Below the pieces are notes generated by a model. That model was not told the origin of the DNA and ran no database searches. It was given only the letters and a program-made list of their open reading frames with translations. This document shows positions 2,859-18,390 of a DNA stretch of 18,390 nucleotides, in pieces (within the stretch, counting starts at the first letter, position 1; every line of letters begins with the position of its first letter). Made by a program: the position numbers and the translations under genes. Origin of the DNA: an uncultured Collinsella sp. (GTDB lineage: Bacteria; Actinomycetota; Coriobacteriia; Coriobacteriales; Coriobacteriaceae); the NCBI GenBank assembly GCA_937934355.1, contig CALGZY010000009.1, positions 1-18,390 of the forward strand, read 5' to 3'.

Positions 2859-2869
2859 CTTTACCACTT

Positions 2870-3026
2870 GATAGAGGCGCGGGCACGAAGATCCGCGGGC
2901 GAGCCGGCAGGCTTTGACCCCGTGGGGAGGCGAAACCCGCCGAACTGGGTTTTTCGGGCACGAACAGCCTGGTGGGCCTGCGGGAAACACCCGCAGGACT
3001 GTCTGCAGCAATGCGGGAGCGCTATC
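2870..3026 (+). ncRNA. lysine riboswitch aptamer (L-box)
   Basis: The leader of the lysA-dapA operon contains the conserved core of the L-box in order. GATAGAGGCGC begins at 2870, GGGGAGGCGAAACCCGCCGAA lies at 2924-2944 in two adjoining parts, and a P5-type hairpin CCTGCGGG-aaaca-CCCGCAGG lies at 2977-2997. ACTGTC and finally GGAGCGCTATC follow, ending at 3026. P1 closes as GATAG (2870-2874) with CTATC (3022-3026). Lysine binding should stabilise P1 and lower expression of the operon, which starts with a lysine biosynthetic gene. The aptamer is about 157 nt, a usual size. Confidence 0.9.
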
Positions 3027-3097
3027 CGGACATTGGGTCCACGCTATGCGGATTCGATGCGCAGATGGCGCCGTCTGGATAGCGAGGTTTACGGGAC
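3027..3097 (+). promoter_or_regulatory. riboswitch expression platform with possible Shine-Dalgarno sequestration
   Basis: There is no hairpin with a U run between the aptamer and the start codon, so control is probably at translation. CC-A-CGCTAT (3039-3047) can pair with ATAGCG-A-GG (3079-3087), which hides the GAGG ribosome binding site (3084-3087). Alternatively, CGCTATCC (3020-3027, containing the 3' strand of P1) pairs perfectly with GGATAGCG (3077-3084). The two pairings exclude each other. P1 formation with lysine would favour the first, the off state. This is inferred from complementarity alone. Confidence 0.5.
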
Positions 3098-5407
3098 ATG
3101 GCATTGACCCCCAACGAGGCATATGCGGCCAAGCAGCCGTTTGTGGACAAGGAGGCACTCGAGCATATCGTCGAGCAGTTTCCCACGCCGTTTCATCTAT
3201 ACGACGAGGCGGGCATCCGCCGCAACATGCAAGAGGTGCGCGACGCCTTTGCATGGAACCCAGGCTTTAAGGAGTACTTTGCCGTCAAGGCCAATCCCAA
3301 CCCGGCGCTCATCTCCATTCTCAACGAATACGGCTGCGGCTGCGATTGCTCGAGCTATACCGAGCTTATGATCGCCCGCTCGCTGGGCATCACGGGACAC
3401 GACATCATGTTCTCGTCCAACGACACACCGGCGGCGGATTTTGAGCTCGCCGACAAGCTGGGTGCCATCGTCAACTTTGACGACATCAGCCACATCGAGT
3501 TCTTTGAGCGCGTCGCAGGCCCCATCCCCAAGACGGTCAGTTGCCGCTTTAATCCGGGCGGCCTGTTCCAGCTTTCCAACGGTATCATGGATAACCCCGG
3601 CGACTCCAAATACGGCATGACCACCGAGCAGCTCTTCGAGGCCTTCCGCACGCTCAAGGCCAAGGGCGCCGAGGACTTTGGTATCCACGCCTTCCTTGCC
3701 AGCAACACCGTCACCAACGACTATTACCCCAAGCTTGCGCGCATCCTCTTTGAGCTTGCCGTGCGCCTGGAGCGCGAGACCGGCGCACATGTCGCCTTTA
3801 TCAATCTGTCCGGCGGCGTCGGCATCCCCTATCTGCCCGAGCAGCAGGCCAACGACATTCACGCCATCGGCGAGGGAGTGCACGCGGCATACGACGAGAT
3901 CCTGGTTCCCGCCGGCATGGGCGATGTGGCCATCTGCACCGAGATGGGCCGCTTTATGATGGGCCCCTACGGCTGCCTGGTCACCAAGGCCATCCACGAA
4001 AAGCAGATCTACAAGGACTATATCGGTGTCGACGCAAGCGCCGTCGATCTGATCCGCCCCGCCATGTATGGCGCCTACCACCACATTACGGTAATGGGTC
4101 AGCCGGGTGGCGCCGACAAGACCGCGGCGCCTGTCACAAACACGTACGACATTACGGGCAATCTGTGCGAGAACAACGACAAGTTCGCCATCGACCGCGA
4201 GCTACCGCAGATCGACATGGGTGATGTGCTCGTGATCCACGATACCGGCGCGCATGGCTACTCCATGGGCTACAACTACAACGGCCGCCTGCGCTCCGCC
4301 GAGGTGCTGCTGCGCCCCGACGGCTCGGCCGACCTCATCCGCCGCGCCGAGCGCCCGGGCGATTATTTTGCCACACTCGACGTGTTGCCGAGCGGCCGAG
4401 AGCTGCTGGCCAAGTCGCGCGCCGAAAGCGCTCGTCGTCGCGCTCAGGACGAGCGCCTGGCCGTCGCCGCTCAATGGAACAAACGCATCCAGATCGCGGA
4501 AGCGAAGGAGAAGAACATGGATATCCGCAACCTCGAGGGCTCGATCGTCGCTCTCGTCACGCCGTTTAAAAAGGACGGCAGCGTCGACTTTGACGCGCTC
4601 GAGCGCCTTATCGATTTCCACTTGCAAAATGGCACCGACGCCATCCTCACCCTGGGCACCACCGGTGAGAGTGCCACGATGACCGATGACGAGGACAACT
4701 CCGTCGTCGCCGCCGTGGTCAAGCATGTTGCAGGACGCGTCTCCGTCATCGCCGGCTCGGGCTCCAACTCCACGCAAACCATGCTCACCAAGTCGCTCAC
4801 TTACCAGGGCTTGGGAGCCGACGGCCTGCTGCTCATTACCCCCTACTACAACAAGTCCAATGAAGAGGGTATCTATCAGCACTTTAAGTCCGTGGCCGAT
4901 GCCGTGGACATCCCCTGCATCCTGTACAACATCCCCGGCCGCTGTGGCTGCGGCATCAGCGAGCACAACGTAGAGCGCCTGGCCGCACATCCCAACATCA
5001 TGGGTATTAAGGAAGCCTCTGGCAACGTCGCTTACGCGGCCAAGATCGCCCACCTGCTGTCTGACGACTTCCGCATGTACTCGGGCGAGGATGCCCTCAC
5101 CGTGCCGCTCATGAGCCTGGGCGCCTCGGGCACCATCAGCGTGTGGGCCGATGTTCAGCCGCAGCTCGTGCACGACATGTGCCGCGCCTATCTGGACGGC
5201 GACGTGGAGCGCGCCCGCGACATCCAGATTGCCGGTCAGCCGCTCATCAACGCCCTCTTTAGTGAGGTCAACCCCATCCCCGTTAAAGAAGCGCTCGCTC
5301 AGATGGGTATGATCGAGGCAAACTACCGCATGCCGCTATGCCCCATGGCCAACGACACGCGCGCTGCACTTACCGATGCTCTGAAGGGAGCTGGTCTGCT
5401 TGATTAA
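3098..5407 (+). CDS. lysA-dapA: LysA-DapA fusion: diaminopimelate decarboxylase / 4-hydroxy-tetrahydrodipicolinate synthase
   Basis: One 769-residue frame holds two enzymes of the same pathway. Residues 1 to about 428 are a fold-III PLP decarboxylase (last step, meso-DAP to lysine): YFAVKANPNP with the PLP lysine at 64, LSGGVGIPY for the phosphate, EMGRF, and NLCENND near the second active-site cysteine. A charged, Arg/Glu/Ala-rich linker of about 45 residues follows. Residues 474-769 are a complete DapA (first committed step, pyruvate plus aspartate semialdehyde) with GTTGES, YNIPGR and the Schiff-base lysine in GIKEASGN (Lys165 of the module). The start at 3098 has GAGG ten bases upstream. 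A strong internal ribosome binding site precedes the DapA module, so free DapA may also be made. The operon continues into dapB with an 8-nt overlap. Expression should fall when lysine binds the upstream riboswitch. Confidence 0.85.
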   Translation: MALTPNEAYAAKQPFVDKEALEHIVEQFPTPFHLYDEAGIRRNMQEVRDAFAWNPGFKEYFAVKANPNPALISILNEYGCGCDCSSYTELMIARSLGITGHDIMFSSNDTPAADFELADKLGAIVNFDDISHIEFFERVAGPIPKTVSCRFNPGGLFQLSNGIMDNPGDSKYGMTTEQLFEAFRTLKAKGAEDFGIHAFLASNTVTNDYYPKLARILFELAVRLERETGAHVAFINLSGGVGIPYLPEQQANDIHAIGEGVHAAYDEILVPAGMGDVAICTEMGRFMMGPYGCLVTKAIHEKQIYKDYIGVDASAVDLIRPAMYGAYHHITVMGQPGGADKTAAPVTNTYDITGNLCENNDKFAIDRELPQIDMGDVLVIHDTGAHGYSMGYNYNGRLRSAEVLLRPDGSADLIRRAERPGDYFATLDVLPSGRELLAKSRAESARRRAQDERLAVAAQWNKRIQIAEAKEKNMDIRNLEGSIVALVTPFKKDGSVDFDALERLIDFHLQNGTDAILTLGTTGESATMTDDEDNSVVAAVVKHVAGRVSVIAGSGSNSTQTMLTKSLTYQGLGADGLLLITPYYNKSNEEGIYQHFKSVADAVDIPCILYNIPGRCGCGISEHNVERLAAHPNIMGIKEASGNVAYAAKIAHLLSDDFRMYSGEDALTVPLMSLGASGTISVWADVQPQLVHDMCRAYLDGDVERARDIQIAGQPLINALFSEVNPIPVKEALAQMGMIEANYRMPLCPMANDTRAALTDALKGAGLLD
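4505..4519 (+). promoter_or_regulatory. internal ribosome binding site and start for the DapA module
   Basis: AAGGAG (4505-4510) lies six bases before ATG 4517, in frame with the upstream LysA module. MDIRNLEGSIVALVTPF is a typical DapA N-terminus. This spacing and strength are as good as any ribosome binding site in the window. Internal initiation, giving free DapA besides the fusion, is therefore likely, or the site is a relic of formerly separate genes. Confidence 0.6.
4517..5407 (+). CDS. dapA: 4-hydroxy-tetrahydrodipicolinate synthase (DapA) as possible internal-start product of the fusion
   Basis: This is the C-terminal module of the LysA-DapA frame, listed separately because it has its own strong Shine-Dalgarno and ATG. 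The 296-residue product has the normal DapA length (about 290-300). It condenses pyruvate with L-aspartate-4-semialdehyde as a TIM-barrel, usually tetrameric, enzyme. Thr48-Thr49, Tyr137 and Lys165 correspond to E. coli Thr44-Thr45, Tyr133 and Lys161. There is no stop codon between it and LysA in this frame. The other two forward frames also lack nearby stops at the junction, so whether cells make fusion, free DapA or both cannot be told from sequence. Confidence 0.6.
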   Translation: MDIRNLEGSIVALVTPFKKDGSVDFDALERLIDFHLQNGTDAILTLGTTGESATMTDDEDNSVVAAVVKHVAGRVSVIAGSGSNSTQTMLTKSLTYQGLGADGLLLITPYYNKSNEEGIYQHFKSVADAVDIPCILYNIPGRCGCGISEHNVERLAAHPNIMGIKEASGNVAYAAKIAHLLSDDFRMYSGEDALTVPLMSLGASGTISVWADVQPQLVHDMCRAYLDGDVERARDIQIAGQPLINALFSEVNPIPVKEALAQMGMIEANYRMPLCPMANDTRAALTDALKGAGLLD

Positions 5408-6179: not shown

Positions 6180-6899
6180 ATGAGCAACGCAGCCGAGATG
6201 GATGCACAGGAGATTATCAACTACATCGCCACCGCGCCCAAAAAGACGCCCGTCAAGCTGTACGTGCGCGAAAAGCCCGGCATGAAGGTCCAGTGGGGCG
6301 ATGCGCACGTCTACGGCGGTCGTCGTGGCAAGACCGTCTTTGGTGACTGGGATGAGCTTAAGGCCATCCTGGACGCCAACGCCGACTCCATCGACTACTA
6401 CGACGTAGAGAACGACTGTCGCAACTCCGCCGTGCCCATGCTCGACCTTAAGGGCATCAACGCCCGCATCGAGCCGGGCGCGATCATCCGCGACCGCGTC
6501 GAGATTGGCGATCACGCCGTCATCATGATGGGCGCCATCATCAACATCGGCTCCGTTATCGGCGAGGGTTCCATGATCGATATGGGCGCCGTGCTGGGCG
6601 GTCGCGCCACCGTGGGCAAGAACTGCCACATCGGCGCCGGCACCGTGTTGGCGGGCGTCGTGGAGCCCGCAAGCGCCACGCCTGTCATCATCGAGGACGA
6701 TGTCATGATCGGCGCTAACGCCGTGGTCCTGGAAGGCGTGCGCGTGGGCAAGGGCGCTGTTGTCGCCGCCGGCGCCGTGTGCGTCGAGGACGTCCCCGCC
6801 GGCGCCGTCGTGGCCGGTGTCCCCGCCCGCGTCATCAAGATGCGCGACGAGAAGACCGACAGCAAGACCGGCCTGGAAGAGGGCCTGCGCCAGCTTTAA
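6180..6899 (+). CDS. dapH: 2,3,4,5-tetrahydropyridine-2,6-dicarboxylate N-acetyltransferase
   Basis: This 239-residue protein uses acetyl-CoA to acetylate tetrahydrodipicolinate, which commits the pathway to the acetylase branch of DAP synthesis rather than the succinylase or direct aminotransferase branches. Residues 1-80 form the family's alpha-helical N-terminal domain ([20 protein letters not shown]). Residues about 90-225 are hexapeptide repeats of a left-handed beta-helix, including [20 protein letters not shown] and [18 protein letters not shown]. The length matches B. subtilis DapH (about 236). AAGGAGAG lies seven bases before ATG 6180. It is the last gene of the operon and is followed two bases later by a perfect 12-bp hairpin that begins a repeated intergenic element. 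The aminotransferase and deacetylase needed next could be the genes at 11442-12605 and 1531-2718. Confidence 0.93.
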
Positions 6900-6901
6900 T
6901 A

Positions 6902-7030
6902 GTTACGCGGTTTTGACAAACCGCGTAACAGGTCGACGCTGCAAACGAGCCAGGGCGGCAATCTGACGTTCAATCGTCGGTCGTGTACCGAAGTACGCTT
7001 CCCTCCTCTTTCACGTCACCTTGCTCGCCT
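6902..7030 (-). repeat. structured intergenic element, copy A (hairpin plus cloverleaf-like stem)
   Basis: Two bases after the dapH stop, GTTACGCGGTTT-tgac-AAACCGCGTAAC (6902-6929) forms a perfect 12-bp stem. Read on the minus strand, the element has an outer stem of 7030-7023 with 6950-6943 (AGGCGAGC/GCTCGTTT, two G-T pairs), an inner stem TGACGT/ACGTCA (7018-7013, 6969-6964), a conserved GTGAAAGAGGAG and a GTAC-TTCG-GTAC tetraloop hairpin (6996-6985). It then continues into GCAGCGTCGA (6942-6933) and the terminal hairpin. Copy B near 17.4 kb has the same order in opposite orientation. The element fills most of the 222-nt gap between convergent dapH and the RelE-type toxin gene. Confidence 0.7.
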
Positions 7031-7082
7031 AGGGACGTTTTCGCTGACGTATGCTCGACCTGCAACGTAATTCAGCCCCAAG

Positions 7083-17341: not shown

Positions 17342-17374
17342 TAGCATTCATCGATGTTTCGTGACCAACAGCGA

Positions 17375-17515
17375 GCGGGCCGCAAGAGTCCCAGGTTGCC
17401 GTGAAAGAGGAGCGACGCGTACTTCGGTACGCGAGCGACGGTTTGAACGGCAAGATGGGGTGCTTGCGGCCCGCGCAGCGTCGAGCAGTTACGCGGTTTA
17501 GTAAAACCGCGTAAC
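17375..17515 (+). repeat. structured intergenic element, copy B (hairpin plus cloverleaf-like stem)
   Basis: The outer stem is GCGGGCCGCAAG (17375-17386) with CTTGCGGCCCGC (17463-17474), twelve perfect pairs. Inside are CCCA/TGGG (17390-17393, 17456-17459) and TTGCCGT/ACGGCAA (17396-17402, 17447-17453). Then come the conserved GTGAAAGAGGAG and a GCGTAC-TTCG-GTACGC hairpin (17417-17432) with a cUUCGg tetraloop. After the outer stem come GCAGCGTCGA and the hairpin GTTACGCGGTTT-agta-AAACCGCGTAAC (17488-17515), ending three bases from the ettA stop codon. Copy A at 6902-7030 has the same parts in inverse orientation. In both the stems are kept although their bases differ. Confidence 0.75.
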
Positions 17516-17518
17516 AAA

Positions 17519-18390
17519 TTAGTCACGCGTCAGCTTGCGGTGAATACGATGCGGCTGGGCTGCGTCCTCGCCCAGACGCTCGATACGATTGGCCTGATAG
17601 GCCTCAAAGTTGCCCTCGAACCAATACCAGTTGCCCGGGTTCTCGTCGGTGCCCTCCCACGCCAGAATGTGCGTGGCGACGCGGTCCAGGAACATACGGT
17701 CGTGGCTAATGACCACCGAGCAGCCCGGGAACTCGAGCAGTGCCGCTTCGAGCGAGGACAGCGTCTCGACATCGAGGTCGTTCGTGGGCTCGTCGAGGAG
17801 CAGCAGGTTGCCGCCCTGCTTGAGCGTGAGCGCCAGGTTCAGACGGTTGCGCTCGCCACCGGAGAGCACACCAGCGCGCTTCTGCTGGTCTTGGCCCTTA
17901 AAGCCAAAGCTCGCCACATAAGCACGGCTCGGAACCTCGGTCTCGCCGACCATCATGTGGTCCAGTCCGTCCGAGACGACCTCCCACAGGTTCTTATCGG
18001 GGTCGATGCCGGAACGGTTCTGATCGACATAGGAGATCTTGACGGTCTCACCTACCTCGAGCTCGCCCGAAGTCAGCGGCTCCAGACCCACAATCGTCTT
18101 GAACAGCGTGGTCTTACCGACGCCGTTGGGGCCGATGACGCCCACGATGCCGTTGCGCGGCAGGGTGAACGAAAGGTCGTCGATAAGCACACGACCGTCG
18201 AATTCCTTGTGCAGATGATGAGCCTCAAGCACCTTGTTGCCCAGACGCGGGCCCACAGGGATGCGGATGTCGGTCCAGTCGAGCTTCTGGCTTGCGCGGG
18301 CCTCGGCCTCCATCTCCTCATAGCGAGCCAGACGGGCCTTGTTCTTGGCCTGGCGGGCCTTGGGCGAGCTGCGCACCCACTCGAGCTCGG
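17519..18390 (-). CDS. ettA: EttA, energy-dependent translational throttle ABC-F ATPase (C-terminal part, cut by the window edge)
   Basis: The last 290 or so residues of an ABC-F protein are present; the gene continues past 18390. EttA binds the ribosomal E site and gates the first steps of elongation according to ATP/ADP level. The visible part starts in the linker between the two ATPase domains (ELEWVRSSPKARQAKNKARL, then IPVGPRLGNKVLEA). It contains the whole second ATPase domain: Walker A GPNGVGKTTLF, Q-loop YVDQNRSGIDP, signature LSGGERNRLNLAL, Walker B LLLLDEPTNDLD with the catalytic Glu, and the H-loop ISHDRMFLDR. The WFEGNFEAY and QPHRIHRKLTR ending is diagnostic of EttA among ABC-F proteins. 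A GTG at 18376 could look like a start but lies inside the conserved linker. A perfect hairpin lies just past the stop. Confidence 0.93.
   Translation of the reverse strand, partial: ELEWVRSSPKARQAKNKARLARYEEMEAEARASQKLDWTDIRIPVGPRLGNKVLEAHHLHKEFDGRVLIDDLSFTLPRNGIVGVIGPNGVGKTTLFKTIVGLEPLTSGELEVGETVKISYVDQNRSGIDPDKNLWEVVSDGLDHMMVGETEVPSRAYVASFGFKGQDQQKRAGVLSGGERNRLNLALTLKQGGNLLLLDEPTNDLDVETLSSLEAALLEFPGCSVVISHDRMFLDRVATHILAWEGTDENPGNWYWFEGNFEAYQANRIERLGEDAAQPHRIHRKLTRD

Follow-up and report, generated by a model that had tools for sequence, protein, structure and literature searches.

Two intergenic stretches in an 18,390-nucleotide piece of DNA from an uncultured Collinsella sp., here called the window, raise the question of what kind of element keeps its fold while changing its sequence, and what places it where it stands, at the end of a gene. 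The initial annotation had described them as inverted copies with common blocks, and both were recovered with four common blocks at the positions given, copy B at 17375-17515 on the forward strand and copy A at 7030-6902 on the reverse strand; a repeat search detected the two through inverted matches, one of 52 nt with 85% complementarity and one of 41 nt with 88%. In each copy a rod hairpin is followed by the block GCAGCGTCGA and then by a tail hairpin, GTTACGCGG...CCGCGTAAC. The start of the element is probably further upstream than first assigned, because a 5' block with CAGCGA or GTCAGCGAG precedes most copies examined, and by eye the extents including this block are about 17350-17515 for copy B and about 7062-6902 for copy A. 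The parts and neighbours of the two copies are as follows.

17350..17374, forward: 5' block of copy B, ATCGATGTTTCGTGACCAACAGCGA, by eye like GCCGATGTTTTGGCAACGACAGCGA before other Collinsella-type copies
17375..17474, forward: rod hairpin of copy B, outer stem 17375-17386 with 17463-17474 in the predicted fold
17401..17406, forward: GTGAAA of copy B, 5' side of a conserved tandem G.A step in which G17403 would pair with A17446 and A17404 with G17445
17416..17433, forward: tip hairpin of copy B, CGCGTAC-TTCG-GTACGCG, from the predicted fold; the loop varies in the family
17443..17448, forward: TTGAAC of copy B, 3' side of the putative tandem G.A step; T, G and A invariant in 16 sequences
17475..17484, forward: 3' block of copy B, GCAGCGTCGA, whose counterpart GCAGCGTCG is common in Eggerthellaceae-type copies
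17488..17515, forward: tail hairpin of copy B, GTTACGCGG...CCGCGTAAC, from the repeat search and the predicted fold
17519..18388, reverse: ettA, neighbour of copy B, cut by the window edge; stop codon 3 nt from the tail hairpin
7035..7062, reverse: 5' block of copy A, starting CAGGTCGAGCATACGTCAGCGA, read from the sequence; by eye similar to blocks in other copies
6946..7034, reverse: rod hairpin of copy A, from a covariance-model match (83.2 bits) and the predicted fold
6933..6942, reverse: 3' block of copy A, GCAGCGTCGA, read from the sequence
6902..6929, reverse: tail hairpin of copy A, from the sequence, the repeat search and the predicted fold
6180..6899, forward: tetrahydropyridine-2,6-dicarboxylate N-acetyltransferase gene (dapD-type), neighbour of copy A; frame end 2 nt from the tail hairpin

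By eye, each copy lies between convergent frames, with a terminator-like hairpin preceding it on its own strand and the opposite-strand gene ending 2-3 nt away. The gene beside copy B has EttA as its top NCBIfam match (456 bits, under the full-length cut-off because the frame is cut), and the gene beside copy A matches DapD_Ac with 347 bits against a cut-off of 231.75. Elsewhere in the window (3098-5407, forward strand) a single 769-aa frame matches lysA over residues 15-424 and dapA over residues 481-763; this fused LysA-DapA has a lysine riboswitch upstream (2864-3032) and dapB and the dapD-type gene downstream.

Folded as RNA on the strand favoured by the initial annotation, copy B reaches -88.3 kcal/mol (z -9.9) and copy A -55.9 kcal/mol (z -3.8), with none of 200 shuffles as good in either case; the opposite strand folds well too (copy B -77.1, z -8.3; copy A -51.2, z -2.8, with 3 of 200 shuffles as good), so one copy alone cannot settle the strand. 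Of the stems said to be kept despite sequence change, the inner ones stand as stated, but the outer stem AGGCGAGC/GCTCGTTT given for copy A is not favoured, the predicted pairing there being GGCG-A-GCAA with TTGC-CGCC. The broader proposal of a selected fold is borne out by covariation statistics, the check that had been suggested for it, here run by shuffling a MAFFT alignment of 16 copies. No shuffle among 500 equalled the real alignment: 17 of 24 pairs are changed on both sides, more than in any shuffle, the covariation score is 0.459 against 0.153 +/- 0.020, and paired cells amount to 90.9% against 72.8%. Sliding the partners by 1-3 columns makes the pairing and covariation measures collapse, a gap that is in part built in because the structure was predicted from the same 16 aligned copies. 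Across the family alignment, copies differ at most stem positions.

Conservation extends to steps outside canonical pairing. In the alignments several internal loops appear as purine steps, such as GUGAAA with UUGAAC, which gives tandem G.A; in the GTGAAA block G, A and A are invariant, and further columns nearly so, in 16 sequences, from which the pairing listed above for copy B is predicted. One internal-loop position covaries as a non-canonical pair, A·G with C·A: among 61 distinct aligned copies matching a search expression in which the 3' side was limited to G or A, the pair is A·G in 43, C·A in 10, A·A in 4, T·G in 3, T·A in 1 and C·G in none.

The choice of folding strand made by the initial annotation proved sound, on grounds other than the one it had offered. 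It had pointed to a cUUCGg tetraloop that appears in one orientation only, and this fails both as strand evidence and as a family feature: among the 61 distinct aligned copies with a tip that fits the expression, the loop is TTCG in only 20, the rest having TTTG, TTAG, TAAAT and others. The evidence that carries the point is energetic and compositional. All 89 distinct copies fold more stably as RNA on the annotation's strand, by a median of 12.7 kcal/mol, and 87 of them favour it with DNA parameters too; the 89 are the distinct sequences among the best 97 of 104 matches to a model itself built on that strand, with the seven lowest matches, including mirror-strand ones, dropped. Among paired cells of an alignment fitted to the model, G-U outnumbers A-C on this strand by 124 to 27. 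Such evidence fits RNA and single-stranded DNA equally, and the two are not distinguishable from it.

Both copies belong to a large family of dispersed elements in Coriobacteriia, each about 160-190 nt long. From 5' to 3', its members carry a block with CAGCGA(G), then a long rod hairpin, then the block GCAGCGTCG and, as a rule, a tail hairpin. The genome search that had been suggested was carried out with a covariance model of the 90-nt core (R1, built from 16 copies), which matches copy B at 17381-17470 with 102.5 bits and detects the core in five families of Coriobacteriia, in 90 of 246 genomes; the genus nearest to the window accounts for 33 of the 90 and includes two listed genomes without the core. 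In a phylum-wide draw the core was present in 14 of 346 genomes, every one in one order, and the draw thus also serves as a control for false matches. In the nearest genus, 19 of 24 genomes match copy B by blastn at E <= 1e-5, and at a loose limit of 10 many have 20-37 matches. In eight genomes searched in small sets, copies number 32 in G169, 37 in G107, 34 in G024, 40 in G014, 31 in G103, 32 in G122 and 18 each in G219 and G162. A pattern scan suited to the Eggerthellaceae form returned 34 stretches, each bearing the title of an Eggerthellaceae genus or MAG.

The blocks flanking the rod recur with the family. In G169, 21 of the 32 copies have CAGCGA in the upstream stretch examined. Of 85 Eggerthellaceae-type copies, 73 have an exact GTCAGCGAG before them and 69 an exact GCAGCGTCG after them; in shifted control windows neither occurs for any of the 85. 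The initial annotation had allowed that other copies might not keep the stems, or that the likeness might be a chance similarity or palindrome artefact of the tail hairpin and its tetraloop. Genome searches found the opposite, and in view of the many copies, the covariation and the restriction to one class this reading is ruled out for practical purposes, its probability being negligible. No phage in the collection searched matches the element, nor does any viral contig match one exact pattern. The sole match in a plasmid collection is an 899,693-bp Collinsella aerofaciens record, equal in size to contig C6 of G008 and therefore perhaps chromosomal. Tandem head-to-tail groups of 2-3 copies, about 100-125 nt apart and in the same orientation, were seen in G022 (L014/L080), G084 (L081) and G057 (L077).

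As far as the Rfam scans and the literature searched go, the family is undescribed, as had been claimed. Nothing in Rfam lies over either copy in the window (E up to 5) or over the element in eight family loci (E up to 1). Collinsella-1 RNA (RF01700) is likewise a structured RNA candidate, listed in the available part of PMC2864571 for Actinobacteria and human gut, and the Rfam scans, whose library should include it, gave it no match in the window or in those loci. The literature searched yielded no description of the element, and an unnamed candidate in the supplements of PMC8040213, a source available in part, could overlap with it.

Most copies lie antisense to a neighbouring gene and abut its 3' end. 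In four genomes, with genes called by a codon-usage script that erred at times, a gene that is confidently coding lies on the opposite strand at the 3' side of the element in 94 of the 117 copies fetched, and the other 23 lack such a neighbour on the expected side. A recognisable tail hairpin is present in 86 of the 94, and the stop codon lies between -6 and +10 nt from the end of that hairpin in 61 of the 86, 14-18 nt inside it in 10 and elsewhere in 15. Under a strict test, antisense abutment occurs in 61 of 117 copies against 9 of 1600 random places and 5 of 304 random intergenic places. The gene on the far side of the element may be convergent or co-directional. A named C. aerofaciens record has a copy flanked by lacB and by an aldose 1-epimerase gene that runs in the same direction. 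A tRNA scan of 32 loci with uncalled neighbours found one distant tRNA only, and none that explained the neighbours. At three loci (L104, L120 and L132) the called frame of the neighbour extends into the tail hairpin as far as a stop within the loop; there the stop codon may be supplied by the element itself. A copy in G169 ends 18 nt from the 3' end of rnpB, the RNase P RNA gene (RF00010, 288 bits). Since this gene has no stop codon, what the sites have in common is a gene end and not a stop codon, and a role strictly tied to stop codons is ruled out.

Dispersed palindromic repeats are common, and for REP and ERIC sequences 3'-end protection, termination tuning or processing sites have been proposed. 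A comparable role here, with the tail hairpin and rod lying in the sense mRNA and protecting its 3' end, tuning termination or setting a processing site, would account for the stop codons clustered at the end of the hairpin, or 14-18 nt inside it in ten more copies, and would suit the copy between lacB and the co-directional epimerase gene. It is nonetheless a distinctly unlikely account: the sense-strand fold is the weaker one in all 89 copies and is without the conserved G.A and G-U steps, the rnpB copy has no stop codon beside it, and the bias with respect to replication described below is left unexplained. Nor is the element an intrinsic terminator, the hairpin being without a following T run: with tails placed by a loose expression, 6 T in 9 nt after the tail occurs in 0 of 115 copies on the forward strand, and on the other strand a T run falls within 25 nt of the rod in 4 of 117.

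Orientation relative to replication was reckoned with the origin at the dnaA position and the terminus opposite to it or, for G107, at the GC-skew flip; the counts cover all matches of G169, G107 and G024, and the listed matches elsewhere (25 of 31 in G103, 27 of 32 in G122, 14 of 18 in G219, 11 of 18 in G162 and 39 of 40 in G014). Five Eggerthellaceae-type genomes have 114 listed copies, and the element's forward strand points to the origin in 107 of these with the terminus set opposite dnaA, and in 110 with that of G107 set at the skew flip. Taken together, G107, G103 and G122 have 85 of 89 listed copies in this orientation; the leading strand carries 357 of 551 genes, and the excess is significant (Fisher p = 7e-11; singly 5e-6, 0.005 and 0.001). 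By dnaA positions and GC skew, the folding strand is the leading-strand template. The three Collinsella-type genomes have 81 of 105 listed copies toward the origin, and in G169, the only one of them with a gene baseline, the count is 25 of 32, no excess over the 127 of 176 genes that lie on the leading strand (p = 0.67; 26 of 32 and p = 0.38 with one near-palindromic match read the other way), so that gene ends alone explain the bias there.

Of the four exceptions among the 89 copies of G107, G103 and G122, two are one locus before hisF in G107 and G103; the remaining two are at G103 1456725 and G122 1091329. At the hisF locus the element has the sense orientation; it lies ahead of hisF in both genomes, with hisA on its other side in G107, and has perhaps been co-opted and long kept. 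Both hisF copies (in L364, G107 3771900-3774900, and in L261, G103 1308100-1311100) score weaker than usual.

One possible though rather unlikely explanation for such placement is that the element acts as a brake on antisense transcription. An antisense RNA, arising by read-through from a convergent gene or from a divergent promoter, would fold just before the polymerase enters the gene from behind, and the rod would recruit a factor or nuclease that stops or destroys the transcript, thereby sparing the cell head-on conflicts with replication. The folding strand is indeed the antisense strand, most copies stand where an antisense transcript would enter the gene, including the one abutting rnpB, which has no stop codon, and three Eggerthellaceae-type genomes favour leading-strand genes, on which antisense transcription is head-on. 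Against this are the hisF copies of G107 and G103, which stand in sense orientation before the gene, and the missing T run after the tail in 115 copies with the tail placed by a loose expression; moreover, near-identical copies already obey the orientation rule, and selection alone would need to act fast.

That last point bears on how the bias arises. Of the 35 copies fetched from G107, 19 share at least 90% identity with another copy, a level reached by the right flank in 0 of 35 and by the left flank in 4 of 35. All 19 follow the orientation rule, and because such near-identical copies are probably recent, the bias looks set at insertion and not filtered later. The sites themselves turn over, filled and empty sites being found between related species. 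Only 5 neighbour genes are common to the 35 copies of G107 and the 26 of G122, which belong to the same genus, and 6 are shared, across genera, between G107 and the 24 copies of G103; shared sites were found by blastp of the longest frame, which may miss some, and one pair at 31% identity was left uncounted. With sites common across genera, such as these six and that of the hisF copy, turnover is slower than one would expect of a purely selfish repeat. Six sites that carry the element in G107 were compared in four relatives: G177 has it at two of them, and no full copy stands at those found in G122 (six), G103 (five) and G166 (five), remnants being present at some. The hisE-glmM junction carries the element in G107 and a remnant in G103, and is empty in G122, G177 and G166, where the stop of the phosphoribosyl-ATP diphosphatase gene and the start of glmM nearly touch. 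The 3' flank of ettA bears the element in the window and in 7 of 22 readable relatives (G001, G003, G004, G007, G011, G012 and G014), one of the 22 showing 81 nt only; a 23rd match falls short of the gene end, and G023 gave no match. At the hisE-glmM site no terminal inverted repeats or target-site duplication were recognised by eye, with element ends that are not exactly defined, and comparison of the ettA flanks revealed no clear target duplication.

Taken together, the turnover and the orientation by gene ends and, in some genomes, by replication make a mobile repeat at least as likely as an RNA gene. In the latter case the copies would be genes for a multicopy small RNA acting in trans, for which the RNA-like architecture and the conserved 5' and 3' blocks speak; it is a very improbable reading, in that a common terminator was not seen, copies differ at most stem positions, and so strict a placement at gene ends is unexpected for a free-standing small RNA gene. 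We lean instead, with somewhat better than even confidence, towards a dispersed, non-autonomous mobile repeat whose folded strand would be the part recognised. Mobility is indicated by the turnover of sites, by copies nearly identical to one another and by remnants, the conserved fold implies that something recognises the folded strand, and the placement, together with the orientation of near-identical copies, suggests aimed insertion; it is the three in combination that favour a non-autonomous mobile element. The fold would be read, as RNA or as single-stranded DNA, by a mobilising enzyme, and insertion would be coupled to replication direction and aimed at gene ends. Any role for the host would be a putative one.

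Candidates for the mobilising enzyme were sought among known families. The Y1 transposase (PF01797) was detected in G122, G024, G014 and G169 and not in G107, G103, G219 or G162 (37, 31, 18 and 18 copies), and membership in the REP/RAYT system is ruled out by these four element-bearing genomes. By eye no GT(A/G)G head stands directly before the palindrome; GTAG occurs inside some 5' blocks (for example GGCGTAGTAAG) and is missing from many others. Reverse transcriptase (PF00078) was detected in G014, G122 and G103 and not in G107, G219, G162, G169 or G024, five element-rich genomes that rule out a resident enzyme of this family as the general mobiliser and speak likewise against a group II intron or other reverse-transcribed element. 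The genomes in which one or the other of PF01797 and PF00078 was not detected carry 18-37 copies. Replication-linked orientation is described for Tn7 (TnsE) and IS200/IS605, through lagging-strand targeting and clamp contacts, in the available part of PMC5371812. Single-strand transposition of the IS200 type is disfavoured here: with the leading-strand template as the stable strand, the arrangement is the reverse of the one predicted for IS200/IS605.

Parallels with other dispersed repeats are instructive. REP/BIME sequences with their RAYT partners, as the available part of PMC2817692 presents them, are likewise palindromes dispersed between genes, with compensatory changes and at times in tandem; the Coriobacteriia element differs in its longer rod with conserved non-canonical steps, in tandem copies that run in one direction and in the four element-bearing genomes without a detected Y1 transposase. 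The enterobacterial ERIC/IRU and YPAL/RU-2 elements are also non-coding and intergenic, 127-168 bp long with stable RNA folds, and YPAL has, as here, sites that are occupied in one relative and vacant in another, besides internal inverted repeats and a lack of TA ends. Going by these partial descriptions (PMC2229807), the Coriobacteriia family is set apart by its hosts, by copies that are mostly antisense at gene ends and, in the Eggerthellaceae-type genomes, by orientation with replication. The betaproteobacterial BRE, found in a structured-RNA screen, is mostly intergenic and forms tandem groups as well, with about 90 bp and up to 29 copies; it occurs in other hosts, and its orientation does not follow fork direction according to the available part of PMC3110155.

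What is unusual is the combination of a class-wide family with an elaborate fold, a covarying non-canonical pair, docking in one orientation at gene 3' ends and, in some genomes, near-perfect alignment with replication direction. Mobility and host function might also be joined, in that a mobile structured-RNA border element would insert behind genes in an orientation set by replication, and its antisense transcript would fold into a G.A-studded rod barring head-on antisense transcription from genes. This combined account is unlikely; if true, a selfish repeat would supply a genome-wide boundary function. Finding the reader of the fold would point to a new fork-linked movement of small elements or to a new transcription boundary in common gut bacteria.

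Two sites known from the element hold other palindromes in relatives. In G019 (L035) a different palindrome, GTGACAAAGGGACTGTCCCTTTGTCAC, lies 3' of ettA at the gene end used by copy B in the window, and in G177 (L290) a different large inverted repeat, of ATCCTTCGACT...CTCAGGATGACA type, occupies the site of a G107 element, following a shared left flank that includes part of the element's 5' block.
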